Source of the DNA: Longimicrobiaceae bacterium
Lineage (GTDB): Bacteria > Gemmatimonadota > Gemmatimonadetes > Longimicrobiales > Longimicrobiaceae
Length of the DNA stretch: 33,577 nucleotides
Direction of reading: 5' to 3'
NCBI GenBank assembly: GCA_036375715.1
Contig: DASVBS010000080.1
Location: 1 to 33,577, forward strand
A program made the translations under genes and the position numbers. Shown here piece by piece: positions 1 to 8,341 of this stretch. The notes under the pieces were generated by a model. It did not search any database, was not told the origin of the DNA, and was given only the letters and a program-made list of their open reading frames with translations. Position 1 is the stretch's first letter, and the number at the start of each line of letters is the position of its first letter.

Positions 1-476
1 CCAGCTATGACGTAGTCTTCCACGTCGACCTGCTCAGTCACTTTCCGGATCCGATCAGGGCGCTCAAAGCAATGGCGAGCCTGCTTCGCCCCGGTGGAGT
101 ACTCTGTTTCGAGGTAGGTATCTTCGCCGGACTCTCGCCTCGTTGGTATCGCTGGATCGGACGGCTCGGATACCCTCAACATCGATGGTTCTATTCCGAA
201 GCCGCGATACACCAGCTACTCGACCGAGCAGGTCTGAAGGTCGACGCAATGAAGCGATTCGGGCTATTTCCCGCGACCATCCTGAGCACTGTAGGGAACC
301 GATTCCTGCGAAGCCCGGAAGACAAGCCGCGCGGACGGGACGGAAGACCCGCTCCCACCAGAGGTTTGAACAAGATATACAGCCGGCTTCAATACCTTCT
401 GCGCTACCGTATCGGTGCATTCGTCCCGCCCGTCGGCCCCCACGCCGTGTTCGTGACCGCCAGTCCGAAAAGTTGA
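1..476 (+). CDS. SAM-dependent methyltransferase, C-terminal part (5' end outside window)
   Basis: The frame is open from base 3 to the TGA at 474-476, so the gene begins left of the window; about 158 residues are visible. The visible part opens with SYDVVFHVDLLSHFPDP, the usual post-motif-II strand and loop of class I methyltransferases. It continues with LLRPGGVLCFEVG (motif III region, L-x-PGG). This pattern is typical of the Methyltransf_11/23 type that methylates small molecules or glycan/lipid acceptors. The SAM-binding glycine motif must lie upstream and cannot be checked. The tail is basic and aromatic (KIYSRLQYLLRYRIG), which could mean membrane proximity, but that is a guess. The gene is followed 52 bp later by a glycosyltransferase in the same orientation, so it most likely methylates a sugar or lipid-linked intermediate of the same pathway. 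Substrate unknown. Confidence 0.75.
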   Translation, partial: SYDVVFHVDLLSHFPDPIRALKAMASLLRPGGVLCFEVGIFAGLSPRWYRWIGRLGYPQHRWFYSEAAIHQLLDRAGLKVDAMKRFGLFPATILSTVGNRFLRSPEDKPRGRDGRPAPTRGLNKIYSRLQYLLRYRIGAFVPPVGPHAVFVTASPKS

Positions 477-528
477 TCGCCATCGCACTGCCGATCTCCG
501 GCGGGCATACTCTGCACCTGAAGGACAA

Positions 529-1815
529 ATGGACGGTCCTATCAGGGTATACTTCCTGGCTCACCAGCTGGGACGCTTCGTCTCGGACTTCGGCGCCCTT
601 CCTCGCTACCTCACGCGTCGGGGTATCGCCGCGACCGTTTTCGTACCCGAGCACCCGCGCACCATCCGAGCTGGCTGGTCACGACCCGATCAGATCGCGG
701 CCAGCCGGCGGCGACTACCGGAGAGCACCGACGTCCGCCAGCTCCCGTTCGACCGGGAGGCTCTAAGCCTATCCGCTCTCCTTCGCACGGCCTGGGTAGT
801 GTACCGGGTTGCACAGAAGAGCGTTGCGGCCGCCTATGTCCTGTGCGGATTCGTGCCCAATGTCGTGTGCGGTCTTCCCCTGCGCCTGCTGGATCGTCCT
901 TGCGTATTCCTCGTGACCGGGCTGGGCAGCGCTTTCGATGCTCCCACCTGGCGCAGGCGCTGGTCCCGGTTCGCTGCCGCGTCGCTGTATCGCTACCTCT
1001 TCGCTGGCAAGAACAGTCGGGTGATTGTGCACAATCACGAGGACCGTGACTATCTCGTCCACGAGTTGCACGTGGCCCGCTGGCGGGTGGAGGTGACACC
1101 GGGATGCGGGGTCGATCCCGAAGAATATCCGTGGCTTCCTCCTCCTCCACCTCGTTCCAGAAAGATCGTTCTCGTACCGGTTCGGCTATTGAAGGAGAAG
1201 GGAGTGCTGGACGCGGCTGCAGCCTCCGCGAGGCTGCGGGCGCGTGGCATCGACCACGAGATGTGGTTCTCCTGTTCCGTCGATCCTGGCAATCCCTCCT
1301 CGCTGACTGAACCCGAGATCGAAGCGCTGAAGCGAGACATTCCCACCATTCGCTTCGTGGGATACCAGCCCACCACGCAGCCCCTCTACGCTCAATGTGA
1401 CGTGGTTCTCATTCCCACCCGCTATCGCGAGGGGCTCCCCACCGCCATCCTCGAAGCTGCTGCATGCGGACGACCCATCGTCGCGACAGACAATGTGGGG
1501 TGTCGAGAGTTCGTCGAAGACGGTCGAACGGGCCTACTGGTCTCCCCCGGGGACCCCGAGGACATGGCGCAGGCTCTTTCCCGCCTACTGACTGATCACG
1601 ATCTCGCCGAGGACCTCCGCAGGGATGCATACCAGAAATTTCTCTCGGGATATACCAAGGCGGTGATGGTCAAGAAGACGATGGACACTCTCGCCGCGCT
1701 CGGCGTGCCCCTGAGGCGTCGTCCTGAGTCAGATCGAGCGAGCCGTCCGGTCCCCCCTCGCCTTCAAGCCTCCCCTGCCGGCGAGATCCACCTGCATACA
1801 GGGAGCACACGATGA
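529..1815 (+). CDS. Glycosyltransferase family 4 (GT-B fold)
   Basis: The product is 428 residues, a normal length for a GT4 retaining transferase that moves a sugar from a nucleotide sugar to an acceptor at the cytoplasmic membrane face. The N-terminal acceptor domain (about 1-200) has the short loop GLGSAF and the strand RVIVHNHEDRDYL. The C-terminal donor domain starts near VLVPVRLLKEKGVLDA. It carries the family signature EGLPTAILEAAACGRP, in which the two glutamates (E-x7-E) contact the donor sugar and diphosphate, followed by FVEDGRTGLLV. The ATG at 529 is preceded by GAAGGAC, an acceptable ribosome binding site. The last ~40 residues are proline- and arginine-rich and look disordered. 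The stop overlaps the cupin start (ATGA), so the two are translationally coupled. Donor and acceptor cannot be read from the sequence. Confidence 0.88.
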   Translation: MDGPIRVYFLAHQLGRFVSDFGALPRYLTRRGIAATVFVPEHPRTIRAGWSRPDQIAASRRRLPESTDVRQLPFDREALSLSALLRTAWVVYRVAQKSVAAAYVLCGFVPNVVCGLPLRLLDRPCVFLVTGLGSAFDAPTWRRRWSRFAAASLYRYLFAGKNSRVIVHNHEDRDYLVHELHVARWRVEVTPGCGVDPEEYPWLPPPPPRSRKIVLVPVRLLKEKGVLDAAAASARLRARGIDHEMWFSCSVDPGNPSSLTEPEIEALKRDIPTIRFVGYQPTTQPLYAQCDVVLIPTRYREGLPTAILEAAACGRPIVATDNVGCREFVEDGRTGLLVSPGDPEDMAQALSRLLTDHDLAEDLRRDAYQKFLSGYTKAVMVKKTMDTLAALGVPLRRRPESDRASRPVPPRLQASPAGEIHLHTGSTR

Positions 1816-2195
1816 CACGATCCGTAGCGCAGTTATCCTTCGATCGATGCAACCTGCAGGACCTCTCCCTTGAACAGCGACGCGCCCACCACGGGCAGGG
1901 TGAGATCAGCTTCCGAAGGATCGTCGAGCGTGGTGAGGTCTCCGGTCCCTGCAACTTCATCGATTACGCCGTTGTACCCCCCGGCGCATCGATTGGTGAG
2001 CACCGTCACCGGTCCGACGAGGAGGAGTTCTACCTGATCCTGGAGGGAGAGGGGACGATGTGGCGCAACGGGGAGGAGTTCCGCGTACGCAAGGGGGATC
2101 TCATTCGCAATCCACCGAACGGGTTGCACCGACTGGAGAACCGAGCGGATCGTCCGCTTCGACTGTTCGTGTTCGAGCTGGCAGTGATCCCATGA
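1812..2195 (+). CDS. Small cupin-domain protein
   Basis: This is a 127-residue single-domain cupin. Cupin motif 1 is visible as GASIGEHRHRSDEEEFYLILEGEG: two histidines (H-x-H) and a downstream glutamate, the usual metal ligands. Motif 2 is GDLIRNPPNGLHRLEN, supplying the last histidine. All four expected ligands are therefore present and a divalent metal is likely. Small cupins of this kind are isomerases, epimerases, dioxygenases or ligand sensors, so the fold does not fix the reaction. It overlaps the glycosyltransferase stop by ATGA and its own TGA overlaps the nucleotidyltransferase ATG at 2192. It is thus embedded in the sugar operon, where a sugar-phosphate isomerase or epimerase role is the simplest reading (inference). 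Confidence 0.85.
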   Translation: MTRSVAQLSFDRCNLQDLSLEQRRAHHGQGEISFRRIVERGEVSGPCNFIDYAVVPPGASIGEHRHRSDEEEFYLILEGEGTMWRNGEEFRVRKGDLIRNPPNGLHRLENRADRPLRLFVFELAVIP

Positions 2196-2992
2196 ACGTC
2201 GTGGGCCTGGTGATGGCCGGCGGCCGCGGCGAGCGCGCGCGTCGATCGATCGCGGACATTTCGAAGCCGCTTCTCGAAGTCGGCGGGGTGACCTTGATCG
2301 AGCGCAACCTTCTCGCCCTGGTGGAGGCAGGCTTTCGGAAGCTCGTGGTCTCGGTGTCGGCAGCCGATTCCGCGCTCAGTTCCTTCGTGGCAGACCGGTG
2401 CGGGACGCTGGTCGGATCGTGGGGAGGATCGCTAGAGCTGCTGGCTGAGCGCTGGCCGCGGGGAAACATCGGGTGCGCGGCCGAGCTGCGGGGTCGCGGC
2501 GCGACGGTCCTGGTTGTCTTCGCCGACAACCTTACGAGCATGAGCTTGCACTCGATTGTGCGGTCGCACGTCGAGCACGACGCGGATCTCACCCTGGCGA
2601 CTCACCGGGAAGCAATTCCCATCCCCTACGGAGAAGTTCGCGTCCGCCAGGGGCGGGTGACGGAGTACTCGGAGAAGCCCGTACACCGCGTCCTGATCTG
2701 TAGCGGCATCGCCGTCCTAGGAGAGCGAGCGCTGGCCGCCATTCCCGCGGACGAAGCGATGGGCATCTCCCAGCTCGCACGGAAGCTCATCGACCAGGGA
2801 GCGCTGGTGCGCGAATATCGCCATTCCGCATCCTGGGTAGACGTAAACGATGCTGCCTCCCTCAGCCGAGCGGAGCTCCTGTTCTCCAGATCGCAGCGCG
2901 AATTCACGCCCCCGTCCAACGACCCGCGCGCCGACCGTTCACGACCGCTCGTCGAAGCCGGCGCTCCCCATACGTCGCGAAGGCCTGGATGA
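2192..2992 (+). CDS. Sugar-phosphate nucleotidylyltransferase (NTP_transferase fold)
   Basis: The product has 266 residues from the ATG at 2192, which overlaps the cupin stop. A longer in-frame start at 2060 lies inside the cupin gene and would add 44 unrelated residues, so I reject it. The N-terminus MNVVGLVMAGGRGERARR is the nucleotide-binding G-G-x-G-x-R loop, and SKPLLEVGG follows with the conserved lysine-proline. VVFADNL is the family's metal-binding (G/A)D strand. EYSEKP and the late WVDVNDAASLSRAE match the glucose-1-phosphate/mannose-1-phosphate nucleotidylyltransferase pattern. The enzyme should couple a sugar (or cyclitol) phosphate to NTP to give an NDP-activated donor for the glycosyltransferase upstream. 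The stop (2992) overlaps the next start by ATGA. The ~20 terminal residues are low-complexity and probably disordered. Confidence 0.87.
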   Translation: MNVVGLVMAGGRGERARRSIADISKPLLEVGGVTLIERNLLALVEAGFRKLVVSVSAADSALSSFVADRCGTLVGSWGGSLELLAERWPRGNIGCAAELRGRGATVLVVFADNLTSMSLHSIVRSHVEHDADLTLATHREAIPIPYGEVRVRQGRVTEYSEKPVHRVLICSGIAVLGERALAAIPADEAMGISQLARKLIDQGALVREYRHSASWVDVNDAASLSRAELLFSRSQREFTPPSNDPRADRSRPLVEAGAPHTSRRPG

Positions 2993-5190
2993 CCGGCAAC
3001 CGCGTTCTCATCACCGGCGTACAAGGATTCATCGGGTCGTACCTGACCGCCCACTGGTTACAGTGCGACACGACGGCCACGATTATCGGCGTCGGTCGTT
3101 CGCCGGAAGCTTTCCATGCCTTCACACACGAGATCCGCCCCGCGGAGACTCCCTTCAAAGCCCCCCTACCCGAGGCACTGATACACGCGCGGCGGGATGA
3201 GCGGTACAGCTATCACAGCCTGGACCTGCGTGACCGCGCGGCGGTGAGGCGACTGATCGAGGACTGTTCCTTTACGCATATCGTTCATCTCGCCGGCTCT
3301 CTTCGGGACGAACCGGCCGAGCAACTGTTCACGAATAATGTCCTGGCGACGGCCACCCTGCTGGAGTGTATCGCCGAAACGGCCCTTCCCCCTCCGCGCA
3401 TCGTCATCGCTTCGACAGGATCCGTGTACGGAAAGGCCGGAGGCGGTGCACCTCCGCGAGGACCCGCGCCGGAGCAGCCCGTCGATCTGTATTCCACCAG
3501 CAAGCTAGCCACCGAGCAGGCCTCCAAGATCCTGGCAGCACGTCACGCCCTTCCTCTGCTCCTTGCTCGCATCTTCAATGTTGTCGGACCAGGTCAGGAC
3601 GAGCGTCACCTCTGCGGCTGGCTTGCGCGCCAGATTGCTCAGATCCGAAACCGGTATCAGGCACCGGAGATCAGGGTGGGTCCGCTGGATACGACTCGAG
3701 ATTTCCTCGACGTGCGTGAGGTGGCACTCGCCCTCTATTTGCTCGCCACCCGGGGTCGCGCGGGGGCGACGTATGACGTGGGATCGGGTGCGGAGACTCC
3801 CGCCGGCCGGGTACTCGAGCACCTCTGCGAGATCGCCGGCCTGGATGGCTCCCTGACCATACGCAGGCTCCCTGCGCGGGCGGCCGATATCCCCAGGCTG
3901 GTGGCGGATACTGCACCACTTGCCGAGCTCGGCTTTGCCCCGGAAATACCGCTCCGCACCAGTCTCGTGGACCTGCTCACCTATTATGAAGATATTCTTC
4001 TAGCCCGACGTCCCCACCACCTCTCCAGCCGACGATTGCCCGGTGCCGCAGATGCGGAGCTACCGGGCGTCTCTCTGCTGGAAGTACGCAATCAGCGGGA
4101 GCATCGCTATACGATTCATGTTGGGCCGGATATTCTGCAGACATTACCCCAGCTTCTGGCTCGCGCCTATCCGGGAGTCCGTATGGCGGTGCTCACGGAT
4201 GATCGTGTTTTCGCCCTGCTCGGCGAAGCATTCGTGCGCGATCTCTGTTCGGTCGACATCGCGACTGTACCCATTGTAGTCGAGCAAGGGGAACAATCGA
4301 AATCACTCCACGTGCTGTCGTCGATTGCGGAACAGCTATTCCGTGGCAAGCTGGACCGCCGGGGCCTGCTGCTGAACCTGGGTGGCGGCATGATCACCGA
4401 TCTCGGCGGGTTTGTGGCCGCCACCTACATGCGCGGCATTCGCTACGCCAATGTTCCCACCACATTGCTGGCACAGCACGATGCAGCCGTGGGTGGTAAA
4501 GTGGCGGTCAATACTCCCTGGGCGAAGAACTTCCTGGGAGCGTTTCACGATCCGGCGGCGGTCTACTGTGACACCGCCGCGCTGAGATCATTGGATGCGC
4601 GCGCGATCAGCTCCGGTATCGCCGAGGCCATCAAAGTGGCCATCATCCGCGAGCCCGATCTCTTCGGCTTGCTGGAACGAGAGGAGCGCGCCATTCGGGA
4701 GCTCCGCGATGCGGCTGTGCTCGGGGAAGTCGTCCTCCGGGCGACGAAAGCGAAGATCGAGTTGCTCGCCCCCGATCCTTTCGAGGCGGACCTGCGGCGC
4801 GCTCTGAATCTCGGTCACAGTTTCGCGCACACACTCGAGACGACGCTCGGCTACCGCCGAATCCTTCACGGTGAGGCAGTCGGATTCGGGATTGCCGTGG
4901 CCGCGGAGATCGCTTGTTCGCGGGGGGTGTGCGACCGGACCACAGCCGATCGAATTCACCAACTGTTGGCTGCCTACGATCTGCCTCCGCGGGTGGAGAT
5001 GGAGGATCTGTTGAGTGCCATCGATCACATGGCGGCGATCCGACTCATCCGCGGGAATCACCTGCACTTCGTTCTGCCCGAGGGAATCGGTGCAGTGCGG
5101 ATCGTGCCTGACCTCTCGCGAGACGAACTGCGCCAGGCTCTGGAGGCGATCGCCGAACATCCGACACTCGGCAATTGCATCGCGGCGTGA
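2989..5190 (+). CDS. Fusion: NAD-dependent SDR sugar epimerase/dehydratase + 3-dehydroquinate-synthase-like sugar phosphate cyclase
   Basis: A single 733-residue frame holds two complete enzymes. Residues 1-~345 are an extended SDR: VLITGVQGFIG (Rossmann G-x2-G-x2-G), VHLAGSL, ASTGSVYG and Y168-STS-K172 (catalytic YxxxK). Residues ~365-733 are a sugar phosphate cyclase: GGG near 465 followed by a TD, PTTLLAQHDAAVGGKVAVN with K504 and N508, KNFLGAFHDP, E546/K549 (AEAIK), R603, N607, H610 and H614 in RALNLGHSFAHTLE, and H627 in LHGEAV. These match the NAD, zinc and substrate residues of AroB-type dehydroquinate synthases. However, the C-terminal lysine pair that usually precedes G-K-x-RFVLP is not evident (AAIRLIRGNHLHFVLP at ~683). 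The central operon position between a nucleotidyltransferase and a ROK kinase argues for a dedicated sugar-cyclising step rather than housekeeping shikimate synthesis. The exact substrate is unknown. Confidence 0.85.
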   Translation: MTGNRVLITGVQGFIGSYLTAHWLQCDTTATIIGVGRSPEAFHAFTHEIRPAETPFKAPLPEALIHARRDERYSYHSLDLRDRAAVRRLIEDCSFTHIVHLAGSLRDEPAEQLFTNNVLATATLLECIAETALPPPRIVIASTGSVYGKAGGGAPPRGPAPEQPVDLYSTSKLATEQASKILAARHALPLLLARIFNVVGPGQDERHLCGWLARQIAQIRNRYQAPEIRVGPLDTTRDFLDVREVALALYLLATRGRAGATYDVGSGAETPAGRVLEHLCEIAGLDGSLTIRRLPARAADIPRLVADTAPLAELGFAPEIPLRTSLVDLLTYYEDILLARRPHHLSSRRLPGAADAELPGVSLLEVRNQREHRYTIHVGPDILQTLPQLLARAYPGVRMAVLTDDRVFALLGEAFVRDLCSVDIATVPIVVEQGEQSKSLHVLSSIAEQLFRGKLDRRGLLLNLGGGMITDLGGFVAATYMRGIRYANVPTTLLAQHDAAVGGKVAVNTPWAKNFLGAFHDPAAVYCDTAALRSLDARAISSGIAEAIKVAIIREPDLFGLLEREERAIRELRDAAVLGEVVLRATKAKIELLAPDPFEADLRRALNLGHSFAHTLETTLGYRRILHGEAVGFGIAVAAEIACSRGVCDRTTADRIHQLLAAYDLPPRVEMEDLLSAIDHMAAIRLIRGNHLHFVLPEGIGAVRIVPDLSRDELRQALEAIAEHPTLGNCIAA

Positions 5191-5193
5191 CCG

Positions 5194-6120
5194 ATGGAAG
5201 CGACCCTTGGAGTGGACCTGGGCGGTACGAAGTTGCTCGCCACAGCGAGCGACCGCACGGAGAATGTCGTCGCCAGTTTCCAGCACGCGACCGGCCCTGC
5301 TTTCCGACCGGAACAGATGCTGACCGTGCTCCGATCCATTCTTGCGAAGCTTTCCACCAGCGGAGTCCGCGTTCAACGTGTCGGCATTGGCTTTCCCGGT
5401 CTGGTCGAACGGCATTCGGGACGAGTGCATTCATCCGTGATTCTGCCCACCTGGCGGGACTACCCGCTCGCAGAACGCGTCGAAGACGACCTCGGAGTCC
5501 GGTGCTATGTCGACAATGACGTGAATGTTGCCGCCCGAGCCGAAGCCAGGGAACGCAATCTGGGCCGCGGCGATAGCATGCTGTTCGTGTCCATCGGAAC
5601 CGGCGTCGGGGGAGCGCTCGTGCTGGATGGGCGGATATGGGAAGGCGCCTCCGGCCTGGCAGGAGAGATCGGCCATGTGAGCATTTCGCGGACTGGCCCG
5701 AGGTGCCTCTGCGGACGTCGAGGGTGCGTGAACCTTTTCGCGTCAGGCACCGCCATTGAAAGACAGCTCCGGCATCAGAGCGCAGGGGTGGCGCTCGCCC
5801 ACAAGCGAGATCCGTCGGTGGTCAGTGTGGTGAGGAAGGCGGCGCAGGCGCTGGGAATCGCGGTTGGGAGCGCCATGAACCTGCTCAACCCGACATTGGT
5901 GGTGCTCGGAGGAGGAGTCGCGCAGTACGGAGCGGCGTATCTGGAGGCCGTACGCGACGCGGTCGCGCGGGAAGCGTTTCCGGAAATTGCCCAAGCATGC
6001 CGGGTGGAGCTGACTCGCGCAGGCTACGCAGCCGGAGCCTACGGCGCAACAATCCTGGCCGGTGAAGCCGAGGTACGGTCGCGCACCGCGGGGCCGGCGC
6101 TGGCGAGGCCCAGCCACTGA
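5194..6120 (+). CDS. ROK-family sugar kinase
   Basis: This 308-residue protein begins 3 bp after the fusion gene's stop. GVDLGGTKLLATA is the ATP phosphate-1 loop, GIGFPGLVE is conserved, and YVDNDVNVAA carries the catalytic aspartate (second D of DND). SIGTGVGGALVLDG is the second phosphate loop. The ROK zinc signature is intact: the histidine of GEIGHV plus the C-x-C-G-x2-G-C set in CLCGRRGC. LNPTLVVLGGGVA closes the adenosine site. The enzyme should phosphorylate a hexose, an amino sugar or, by analogy with ROK/glucokinase-like kinases in C7-cyclitol pathways, a cyclitol. Family membership is certain; substrate is not. There is no helix-turn-helix domain at the N-terminus, so it is a kinase rather than a ROK repressor. 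Its TGA overlaps the next ATG (TGATG). Confidence 0.93.
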   Translation: MEATLGVDLGGTKLLATASDRTENVVASFQHATGPAFRPEQMLTVLRSILAKLSTSGVRVQRVGIGFPGLVERHSGRVHSSVILPTWRDYPLAERVEDDLGVRCYVDNDVNVAARAEARERNLGRGDSMLFVSIGTGVGGALVLDGRIWEGASGLAGEIGHVSISRTGPRCLCGRRGCVNLFASGTAIERQLRHQSAGVALAHKRDPSVVSVVRKAAQALGIAVGSAMNLLNPTLVVLGGGVAQYGAAYLEAVRDAVAREAFPEIAQACRVELTRAGYAAGAYGATILAGEAEVRSRTAGPALARPSH

Positions 6121-7385
6121 TGGGTACCATTGCTGAATGTGCGAAAGTCGCTCTGATCGGTGGCGGTGTCTACGTAGCCAGGCTATGTGAGCTGCTCGCC
6201 GCCACAAGCCCGCTCCCAAACCTCCATCTTTCTCTCGTCGCTCGACGTGCCAACCGGCTGCGGGTGATCGCGGAGCATGCCAAGCGCCGCGTTCGATTGC
6301 ACCGCACCGATTGGCAACTCACTGCACATGTCGATATCGAGTCGGCCGTCGCAGGCGCGAGCTTGGTAGTCTTGCTGATCCGGGTCGGCGGCCTCCGAGC
6401 GCGATTGTACGACGAGACGTTCCCGGAGCGCTTTGGGCTGGTGGGGGACGAAGGGCTCGGCGCGGGAGGCATGGCCAACGCCTGGAGGACCCTGCCGGTG
6501 CTCACAGCGATAGCGGATACGCTCCGTCGTGTCGCGCCGAAGGCGCCCGTGGTGAACCTGGTTGCTCCGCTCGGGATCACCACACGATTGTTGCTGGACG
6601 AAGGGCTGCGGGCTTTTGGTATTTGCGAGCTTCCCCATACGACGCAGCAGAGATTGCTCTCGGCCCGGGGCGATCACCGAGGAGCGCGGTTGCACTATGT
6701 GGGGCTCAACCACCTCGGCTGGTTCTGGGGCGCCAACGCGGCCGGAGAGGTGGCACTCCACGAAGCAGTGCGATTCGGACTCGTCGAACAACGCGTTCTG
6801 CGCGAATTCGGCGCCGCCCCGCTGCATTACTACTACCGGATCTATGATCCCCCCGCAGCGCTACGGCTGGGCGTGAACGCGCCCCGCGGGCGGGCTCGTT
6901 GGCTCATATCCCTGGACCACCACATTTACCGACGCATCCGTTGCGAACCGGGAGGCGACGTGCCGGAATACGGTGAGCGGCCGACGCCGTGGTTCGAGCA
7001 CGCGATCATCCCGGTGATGACTGCGTTGCTCAGCGGTGGTACCCATGTTGGCTTCGCCGATTTCGTCGTCGAGCCGCAAATGACATGGGCTCCGCGAGGC
7101 GTCGTGGTAGAGGTGCCGGCGGCAATTGCCTCCGGTACCGCCGTGGCCGATTCCCTACCCCACCCGCCGCCACGCGTGGTCGACTTCCTCTCCAGAGTTG
7201 CCGAGGCCGAAGACCTCACCTACCGCGCCGCCATCAATCGAGACCGAAGAAGAATGAAGGCGGCGGCACGCCTGCTAGCGCGGCGACTCGAACCACCTCT
7301 CCTCGATGAGTTGACGAACGCGATCTGCGGCGGCGTCAGCCCCTATGTCGCGGAGCCGCTGCCCTCCGACAATATCGCCCTATGA
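6120..7385 (+). CDS. Divergent GH4-like NAD-dependent glycosidase/oxidoreductase
   Basis: A 421-residue protein with the layout of glycoside hydrolase family 4, enzymes that use NAD and a divalent metal to oxidise the sugar at C3 before eliminating the aglycone. Visible family marks are VALIGGGVYVARL (Rossmann loop), LLIRVGGLRARLYDE (the RVGG-x-x-AR-x-x-DE block), the cysteine in FGICELP and the histidine in YVGLNHLGW; cysteine and histidine are the usual metal ligands. Differences are marked: the family GQET block reads GDEGLGAGG, and the Asn-Pro of the N-P-S-G-I block is replaced (NLVAPLGI). The fold and cofactor use look conserved but the substrate pocket is changed, so hydrolysis of a 6-phosphoglycoside should not be assumed. 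It may instead be an NAD-dependent redox or epimerase step on the pathway sugar. ATGA overlap with the following gene. Confidence 0.78.
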   Translation: MGTIAECAKVALIGGGVYVARLCELLAATSPLPNLHLSLVARRANRLRVIAEHAKRRVRLHRTDWQLTAHVDIESAVAGASLVVLLIRVGGLRARLYDETFPERFGLVGDEGLGAGGMANAWRTLPVLTAIADTLRRVAPKAPVVNLVAPLGITTRLLLDEGLRAFGICELPHTTQQRLLSARGDHRGARLHYVGLNHLGWFWGANAAGEVALHEAVRFGLVEQRVLREFGAAPLHYYYRIYDPPAALRLGVNAPRGRARWLISLDHHIYRRIRCEPGGDVPEYGERPTPWFEHAIIPVMTALLSGGTHVGFADFVVEPQMTWAPRGVVVEVPAAIASGTAVADSLPHPPPRVVDFLSRVAEAEDLTYRAAINRDRRRMKAAARLLARRLEPPLLDELTNAICGGVSPYVAEPLPSDNIAL

Positions 7386-8341
7386 AGCTCGGTGTCTGCC
7401 TGCAGGCGCTCTATCATCTTCCCTTTGAAGAAGCTATTCGAGCAGCCGCATCGCTAGGGTACGAAGCGGTGGAACTGCCCGTGGACAGCAGATCACCATT
7501 CGTTGACCTGGAAGCTGCTTTGAATGGTGACTGGAAGCGGATTCAAAGGGCGATTGAAGCTGCCGGTCTTGAGATTTCCGCCCTCTCCAATCATCAGGAG
7601 GGCCAGCTGCTGCTCGGCCCTCACGGAGAAGATACCGATCCGATTTTCAAGGGGTCGCCGAAAGCCAAGATCGACTACGCAGAGCACCGTCTCCGCTGCA
7701 CCGCGGATCTGGCAAAGCTGCTCGACGTCACCGTCGTCTGCGGGTTCACCGGATGTGAAGACTACTCGAGGTGGTTTCCCTGGCCGCTGGCTGATGGGTA
7801 CGAACGGATGGCCTCGGTATTCCGTGAACGCCTCCTCCCCATCCTGGATCACTTCGACGCCCGTGGCGTGCGTTTCGCCCACGAATGTCATCCCCGGCAG
7901 TTCGCGTACAATCTCGAGACCGCGCTCTGGACAGTCGATCTCCTGGACGGACATTCAGCGTGGGCATTCAACCTCGATCCCGGCAATTTAGCCCTGGCGG
8001 GTGTGGACCCGGTGGTGTTCGTCTCCGAGTTGCGAGACCGCATCGTGCACGTGCACGCCAAAGACTGCGAGCGAGTCGCGCACAACATCGATCGCTCGGG
8101 ACTGCTCGCACATGGCCCCTGGAACCGACCCGATCGCGGATTCAGGTTCAGGGTTCCGGGTTGGGGAGGGATCCCCTGGAAACGATTGATTTCCGAGCTA
8201 CAGATGCGCGGCTACCGCGGCGTCCTCGCCGTCGAGCACGAGGATCCCACTATGGATCCGATCGAGGGGCTGGAGCAGGCGCGGGACTACCTTCAACCAA
8301 AGCTGCTCCGCCGCCCACCGCCACAGACAACGTGGTGGTGA
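7382..8341 (+). CDS. Sugar phosphate isomerase/epimerase, xylose-isomerase-like TIM barrel
   Basis: This 319-residue protein starts at the ATG overlapping the GH4-like stop and is the last gene of the operon. MKLGVCLQALYHLPFEEAI and LGYEAVELPVDS are the first barrel strands of the AP_endonuc_2/IolE-type superfamily. The four metal ligands expected at strand ends can be placed: glutamate in VRFAHECHP, aspartate in FNLDPGN, histidine in IVHVHAKD and glutamate in LAVEHEDP. A divalent-metal isomerase or epimerase acting on a ketose, keto-inositol or keto-cyclitol is expected. An apurinic endonuclease role is unlikely because the metal set is of the isomerase type and the context is sugar metabolism. 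The tail after DYLQPKLL is proline-rich and probably disordered. Confidence 0.88.
   Translation: MKLGVCLQALYHLPFEEAIRAAASLGYEAVELPVDSRSPFVDLEAALNGDWKRIQRAIEAAGLEISALSNHQEGQLLLGPHGEDTDPIFKGSPKAKIDYAEHRLRCTADLAKLLDVTVVCGFTGCEDYSRWFPWPLADGYERMASVFRERLLPILDHFDARGVRFAHECHPRQFAYNLETALWTVDLLDGHSAWAFNLDPGNLALAGVDPVVFVSELRDRIVHVHAKDCERVAHNIDRSGLLAHGPWNRPDRGFRFRVPGWGGIPWKRLISELQMRGYRGVLAVEHEDPTMDPIEGLEQARDYLQPKLLRRPPPQTTWW

Follow-up and report, generated by a model that had tools for sequence, protein, structure and literature searches.

The question raised by this locus was what is made by the row of eight genes at the left end of a Longimicrobiaceae contig, which a preliminary description had likened to a cyclitol-type pathway. 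The window analysed here comprises 33,577 nucleotides and is the whole of contig C80 of an 87-contig, 4.37-Mb genome (G000). Open reading frames and Pfam searches placed eight co-directional genes at positions 1-8341, head to tail and in the families and order described before. The start of the nucleotidylyltransferase gene was set to 2192, which corrects an earlier reading.

1..476, + strand: SAM-dependent methyltransferase, C-terminal part (PF13489, 2.4e-13), with its 5' part on contig C85
529..1815, + strand: GT4 family glycosyltransferase (PF13692, 2.1e-28; PF00534)
1812..2195, + strand: single-domain cupin with an HxH...E...H metal motif (PF07883, 2.7e-18)
2192..2992, + strand: sugar/cyclitol-phosphate nucleotidylyltransferase (PF00483, 6.9e-15)
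2989..5190, + strand: fusion of an SDR and a sugar phosphate cyclase (PF01370, 5.1e-38; PF01761, 2.7e-41; PF24621)
5194..6120, + strand: ROK family kinase (PF00480, 7.7e-62)
6120..7385, + strand: GH4-family NAD/metal-dependent enzyme with a C-E-L-P motif (PF02056, 1.1e-26)
7382..8341, + strand: xylose-isomerase-like TIM barrel, metal site E168/D199/H225/E285 (PF01261, 3e-30)

In the fusion protein, an extended, RMD/epimerase-like SDR occupies about residues 1-335 and the cyclase about residues 365-733. Overlaps of 1-4 bases had been noted for most junctions and were measured at five of seven: the gaps are +52 bases for methyltransferase/GT4, -4 for GT4/cupin, cupin/nucleotidylyltransferase and nucleotidylyltransferase/SDR-cyclase, +3 for SDR-cyclase/ROK, -1 for ROK/GH4 and -4 for GH4/TIM barrel. 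The operon contains no transporter, no regulator and no other shikimate gene. It also holds no cyclitol phosphatase and no second kinase, which counts against a cyclitol product.

The window spans the entire contig, so only the C-terminal 157 residues of the methyltransferase are encoded there. The end of contig C85 (L124) is identical to positions 1-141 of the window. Across the two contigs the methyltransferase frame is open from position 19187 of L124, and the joined reading frame is 39% identical over 304 residues to the methyltransferase of a Myxococcota cluster (L118). C80 and C85 are therefore probably adjacent in the assembly graph, as judged from the overlap, and the promoter region of the operon would lie on C85. 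On C85 the methyltransferase is preceded by an unrelated gene of opposite orientation, which makes the methyltransferase the first gene of the operon; genes further upstream are likewise unrelated. With this gene completed, the operon comprises eight genes in full, none of them for an aminotransferase. The lack of an aminotransferase, previously stated for the part in view, thus held after the leftward extension. The same was found for UbiA and TatD genes, since genes of the eboB, eboC and eboF type are absent from the operon and no such cluster lies upstream on C85.

Conservation of the genes as a unit was examined in other genomes. When the GH4 protein was searched for across the phylum, one ortholog was found, in G312; searches of the order and class returned mostly unrelated GH4 genes. 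The proteins of the G312 locus (L051, on the contig of L057) are identical to those of the window at 57% (cupin), 50% (nucleotidylyltransferase), 48% (SDR), 55% (cyclase), 46% (ROK), 45% (GH4) and 67-68% (TIM barrel). When an alignment of the two TIM-barrel proteins from the window and L051 was used as the query against 84,980 species genomes, five loci were returned and the cluster was present in 5/5. These lie in one Gemmatimonadales MAG (the G312 record), three Myxococcota MAGs and one actinobacterial MAG; in one genome, G410, the cluster is divided between two contigs (L118 and L055). A seventh locus, L119 in G532, is partial, as its contig ends inside the cyclase and the cupin and nucleotidylyltransferase genes are not visible there. 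The conserved core consists of the cupin, the nucleotidylyltransferase, the SDR-cyclase, the ROK kinase and the TIM barrel, and the SDR is joined to the cyclase in a single gene in each of the six loci that show both. The fusion is rare, for only the members named here were found among 284 Myxococcota and 296 Actinomycetota genomes, samples that include the seed genomes. This conservation rules out a chance arrangement. The preliminary description had made its proposal depend on co-occurrence elsewhere, and the genes do occur as a unit in six other genomes. Every carrier genome that can be named is a MAG, which counts against the cyclitol reading. No paper describing the cluster was found in the literature searched, where most subscription journals are missing.

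Locus L035 of G241 was rejected as a relative, being a sugar catabolic GH4 neighbourhood. A plasmid of Streptomyces NBC_01456 (L060:7256-16094) encodes a cyclase with 46.5% identity across 79% of the query, next to inositol monophosphatase-like and NDP-sugar synthase genes; as genes for a BadF-type kinase and a TPP-dependent enzyme also adjoin it, this was rejected as the same cluster.

The genes around the core vary between the loci. In five loci (the window, L056, L057, L058 and L059) the GH4 gene lies immediately 5' of the TIM-barrel gene and overlaps it by 4 bases, whereas in L055 and L119 the ROK gene is followed directly by the TIM-barrel gene. As it is missing in two of seven loci, the GH4 gene is accessory, which changes the earlier view of it. 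The Myxococcota clusters L056, L059 and L118 have as extras a radical SAM/SPASM protein and a DegT/DnrJ aminotransferase, and in them a Nudix domain is fused to the nucleotidylyltransferase; the L056 protein hits both the NTP transferase and the Nudix models. The radical SAM/SPASM protein is conserved at 57-59% (L056:16475-17473, L059:2814-3800, L118:4290-5291), and a search of G000 for a homologue gave a distant match only. A homologue of the DegT/DnrJ-type aminotransferase is absent from the window operon, L057 and L058. The methyltransferases of L118 and L056 are 42-44% identical to that of the window, a further SDR gene and a GT4 ortholog occur in several loci, and a Polysacc_synt_3 flippase-like gene lies 3' of the cluster in L055. 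A protein of about 600 residues with a weak thymidylate-kinase-like P-loop domain is encoded 3' of the TIM barrel in the Myxococcota clusters (L055:1727-3631, L056:10951-12666, L059:10936-12810 and, incomplete, L119:1-979); its N-terminal part matches no family. With their common core and variable tailoring genes, the loci resemble natural-product or glycan clusters.

The third-position GC content (GC3) is 0.64-0.78 in the eight operon genes and 0.78-0.90 elsewhere in the window; nearly all genes of the contig at 8342-33577 exceed those of the operon. The SDR-cyclase fusion was absent from 60 genomes of the same family and order. Both results fit, and suggest, that the operon was acquired horizontally.

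The cyclase domain was compared with AroB, EEVS and DOIS in an alignment of the seven cluster cyclases with some 60 AroB proteins, one DOIS and three proteins annotated as sedoheptulose-7-P cyclases. It had been considered that the domain might be the only AroB of the genome. G000 has a second cyclase-family gene on C23, which is 36-37% identical and has the full set of AroB residues, and the five further cluster genomes checked each have one fused copy and one separate stand-alone AroB. Every AroB in which this stretch could be read has the DKK motif (the K356 region in A. nidulans numbering), which is replaced by IR[LR] (IRL or IRR) in 7/7 fused cyclases. In two maximum-likelihood trees the cluster cyclases formed one clade (100/99) outside the AroB clade (100/99). 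With the TIGR01357 AroB model, the window cyclase scored 297 bits and those of L056 and L059 scored 285 and 289 bits, all below the cut-off of 305. On the score, the lost DKK and the position in the trees, an AroB identity was rejected.

The metal ligands E194, H271 and H287 and nearly all other catalytic residues are retained in the cluster cyclases, N162K in L056 being an exception and L119 a fragment. The EEVS signature M/D/P at 250/268/275 is absent, as all seven have K250, N268 and H275, and an EEVS identity was rejected. A DOIS identity was rejected as well, since R264 and N268 are found instead of A264 and E268, the reference being a single long-branched Sodalis DOIS. Searches of the PDB by sequence and by fold ranked DHQS first for the cyclase, which counts against the cyclitol reading, and K250, R264, N268 and H275 are kept as in DHQS. 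With these DHQS-like residues and no EEVS signature, sedoheptulose-7-P is not established as the substrate. We take K250 and R264 to contact the substrate carboxylate in DHQS, and K356 presumably has an active-site role too; with K250 and R264 retained, the substrate may be an acid. Enzymes of the EVS clade would also pass for DHQS by sequence (PMC5133447). The cluster cyclase shares with AroB the fold and most of the active-site residues and would share the NAD/metal chemistry, but it differs in the IR[LR] motif, the separate clade, the N-terminal SDR and its presence as a second copy beside AroB. Taken together, the sequence comparisons support the assignment of the fused cyclase to a sugar phosphate cyclase subfamily other than AroB.

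The other core enzymes were compared with solved structures and known clusters. The nearest structures to the SDR half are GDP-4-keto-6-deoxymannose reductases, and sugar 4,6-dehydratases and epimerases were also found. The metal residues of the cupin (H64, H66, E70-72 and H106) are invariant. The protein is 47% identical to a cupin adjoining the sedoheptulose-7-P cyclase of an acarbose-like cluster in Streptomyces NBC_00467, which gives independent support for tying the cupin to cyclitol synthesis. The ROK kinase has a low identity of 25-31% to the kinases of other cyclase clusters, and this counts against the cyclitol reading. For the TIM barrel, which keeps the E/D/H/E metal site, the nearest solved proteins are 2zds and 8ro4 (2-hydroxy-3-keto-glucal hydratase); an identity as inosose dehydratase IolE was rejected, with 45.6 bits on TIGR04379 against a cut-off of 290. 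A plasmid of Rhodococcus WB1 (L126:5182-13113) encodes a 42% identical TIM-barrel protein; the genes around it, among them a levoglucosan/inositol-dehydrogenase-like one and one for a fused E1-type TPP enzyme, form a cluster that looks catabolic.

For the GH4-like protein, the top 49 Foldseek matches of a model of modest confidence (pLDDT 66.6) were all GH4 proteins. C169 and H198, the metal-binding Cys and His, and Y237 are conserved. The predicted fold, the Cys/His ligands and the candidate base Tyr place it in the GH4 family. It has the full fold, the metal-ligand Cys/His and the candidate base Tyr in common with the GH4 glycosidases BglT and Gan4C, but has C-E-L-P where the compared GH4 proteins have CDSP/CHGV, GDEGLGxGG where they have GQETxGPGG, and a biosynthetic context.

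On balance, we favour the reading that the operon produces an NDP-activated cyclitol, a carbocyclic sugar, and transfers it to an acceptor, with substrates and products proposed by analogy to AcbC, AcbM, AcbO, AcbN and AcbR. The cyclase would convert a sugar phosphate, most likely sedoheptulose 7-phosphate or a related ketose phosphate, to a ring ketone by NAD/metal-dependent oxidation, phosphate elimination, reduction and aldol reaction, as across the superfamily. The TIM-barrel protein and the cupin may epimerise, dehydrate or hydrate the ring ketone, and the fused SDR may reduce or epimerise the cyclitol ketone. The ROK kinase would phosphorylate the cyclitol, the nucleotidylyltransferase would form the NDP-cyclitol, the GT4 enzyme would transfer it and the methyltransferase would O-methylate it. 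The role of the GH4-like enzyme is the most tentative of all. GH4 enzymes oxidise C3 ahead of elimination, so a coupled redox and isomerisation branch is most likely, in which it would act as an accessory NAD/metal-dependent redox enzyme at a sugar or cyclitol carbon together with the TIM-barrel protein.

Other readings of the operon were weighed against the cyclitol pathway. The fused cyclase could be a second dehydroquinate synthase whose product gives rise to a DHQ- or shikimate-derived C7 acid that is glycosylated or methylated. The four DHQS-like residues, the near-threshold AroB score and the best structural matches agree with this, but the loss of DKK in all seven proteins, the place outside the AroB clade, the separate AroB in the checked genomes and the lack of other shikimate genes speak against it, and the kinase and nucleotidylyltransferase point to a sugar-like product; we regard it as rather unlikely. 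A C7N-aminocyclitol pathway of the acarbose/validamycin type, with a window version whose gene for amine addition was lost or lies elsewhere in the genome, would account for the aminotransferase adjoining L056, L059 and L118 and for the related cupin of the acarbose-like Streptomyces cluster. It is nevertheless quite unlikely, as three loci including the window have no such aminotransferase homologue, the radical SAM protein is matched only distantly in G000, no pseudoglycosyltransferase was seen and the cyclase is not EEVS-like.

The genes could also form a catabolic operon, with the GH4, TIM-barrel, ROK, SDR and cupin proteins degrading a glycoside via 3-keto intermediates. GH4 chemistry, which begins with oxidation at C3, the hydratase next to the TIM barrel in structure and the TIM-barrel relative in Rhodococcus would suit such a role, but the cyclase, nucleotidylyltransferase, GT4 and methyltransferase are biosynthetic, the operon has neither transporter nor regulator, and GH4 is missing in two loci; this makes it very improbable. 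Equally, GT4, methyltransferase, nucleotidylyltransferase and SDR genes are typical of O-antigen or exopolysaccharide operons, and L055 has the flippase-like gene. That the operon is an ordinary one of this kind, with a cyclase that has no role in the sugar, is highly improbable, because the cyclase retains its catalytic residues and forms one protein with the SDR in every locus that shows both.

The cyclitol pathway, if correct, would have consequences beyond this genome. Carbasugars, acarbose and validamycin among them, are of importance as glycosidase inhibitors, and most of what is known of their pathways comes from actinomycetes. The cyclase-fusion cluster would carry carbasugar chemistry into Gemmatimonadota and Myxococcota, phyla whose natural-product biochemistry is poorly known, and its five core genes are a defined, expressible set for finding a new cyclitol. 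Cluster cyclases come so close to the AroB model that they could be mislabelled as 3-dehydroquinate synthase.

The operon was compared with known cyclitol systems. On Rhizobium rhizogenes pC6.5b (L064:2827-6344), genes for a sedoheptulose-7-P cyclase, a ROK kinase and a TIM-barrel protein lie in a row. The TIM-barrel protein fails to align with that of the window, so the likeness is one of gene content only, and this plasmid was rejected as a relative. In the Ebo operon, too, a xylose-isomerase-like TIM-barrel protein is encoded together with a cyclase that belongs to a clade of its own (PMC5133447), but the window operon has a kinase, a nucleotidylyltransferase and a glycosyltransferase instead of the UbiA prenyltransferase, TatD-like hydrolase and phosphodiesterase; an Ebo identity was rejected as eboB (TatD-like), eboC (UbiA) and eboF (phosphodiesterase) are absent. 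The acarbose-like plasmid cluster of Streptomyces sp. NBC_00467 (L125) also has a cyclase beside a cupin, together with ROK, nucleotidylyltransferase, SDR, Nudix and HAD genes. Its cyclase is unfused and of the EEVS type, it has an aminotransferase, RmlA/RmlB and transporters of its own, and no TIM-barrel or GH4 gene is among those listed.

In acarbose synthesis, the ROK kinase AcbM, the epimerase AcbO, the SDR AcbN and the GTP-using AcbR lead to GDP-valienol (PMC9200736, PMC7081202). The cyclase, ROK kinase, SDR, nucleotidylyltransferase and glycosyltransferase of the C7-cyclitol gene set are found together in the window. In common with the acb and val clusters are the DHQS-superfamily cyclase, the ROK-type cyclitol kinase (AcbM, ValC), the SDR reductase (AcbN), the nucleotidyltransferase giving a GDP-cyclitol (AcbR, ValB) and the glycosyltransferase (PMC9200736, PMC7081202). 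Unlike in those clusters, the cyclase has an SDR as its fusion partner and no EEVS signature, aminotransferase and pseudoglycosyltransferase are absent, and a GH4-like enzyme and a methyltransferase are added. Because the EEVS signature is absent and the substrate is an inferred one, we do not class the operon as a C7-cyclitol pathway; by sequence, it is no known cluster type in the tests made. The first interpretation is supported in part: the resemblance to C7-cyclitol pathways without a match to any of them is borne out by the conserved unit with its non-AroB cyclase, while the lack of an aminotransferase holds for this operon but does not extend to three Myxococcota versions, which carry a DegT/DnrJ aminotransferase and a radical SAM gene. 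In conclusion, the best explanation would be that the operon follows the logic of acarbose and validamycin synthesis, but with a cyclase of another subfamily and in another architecture.
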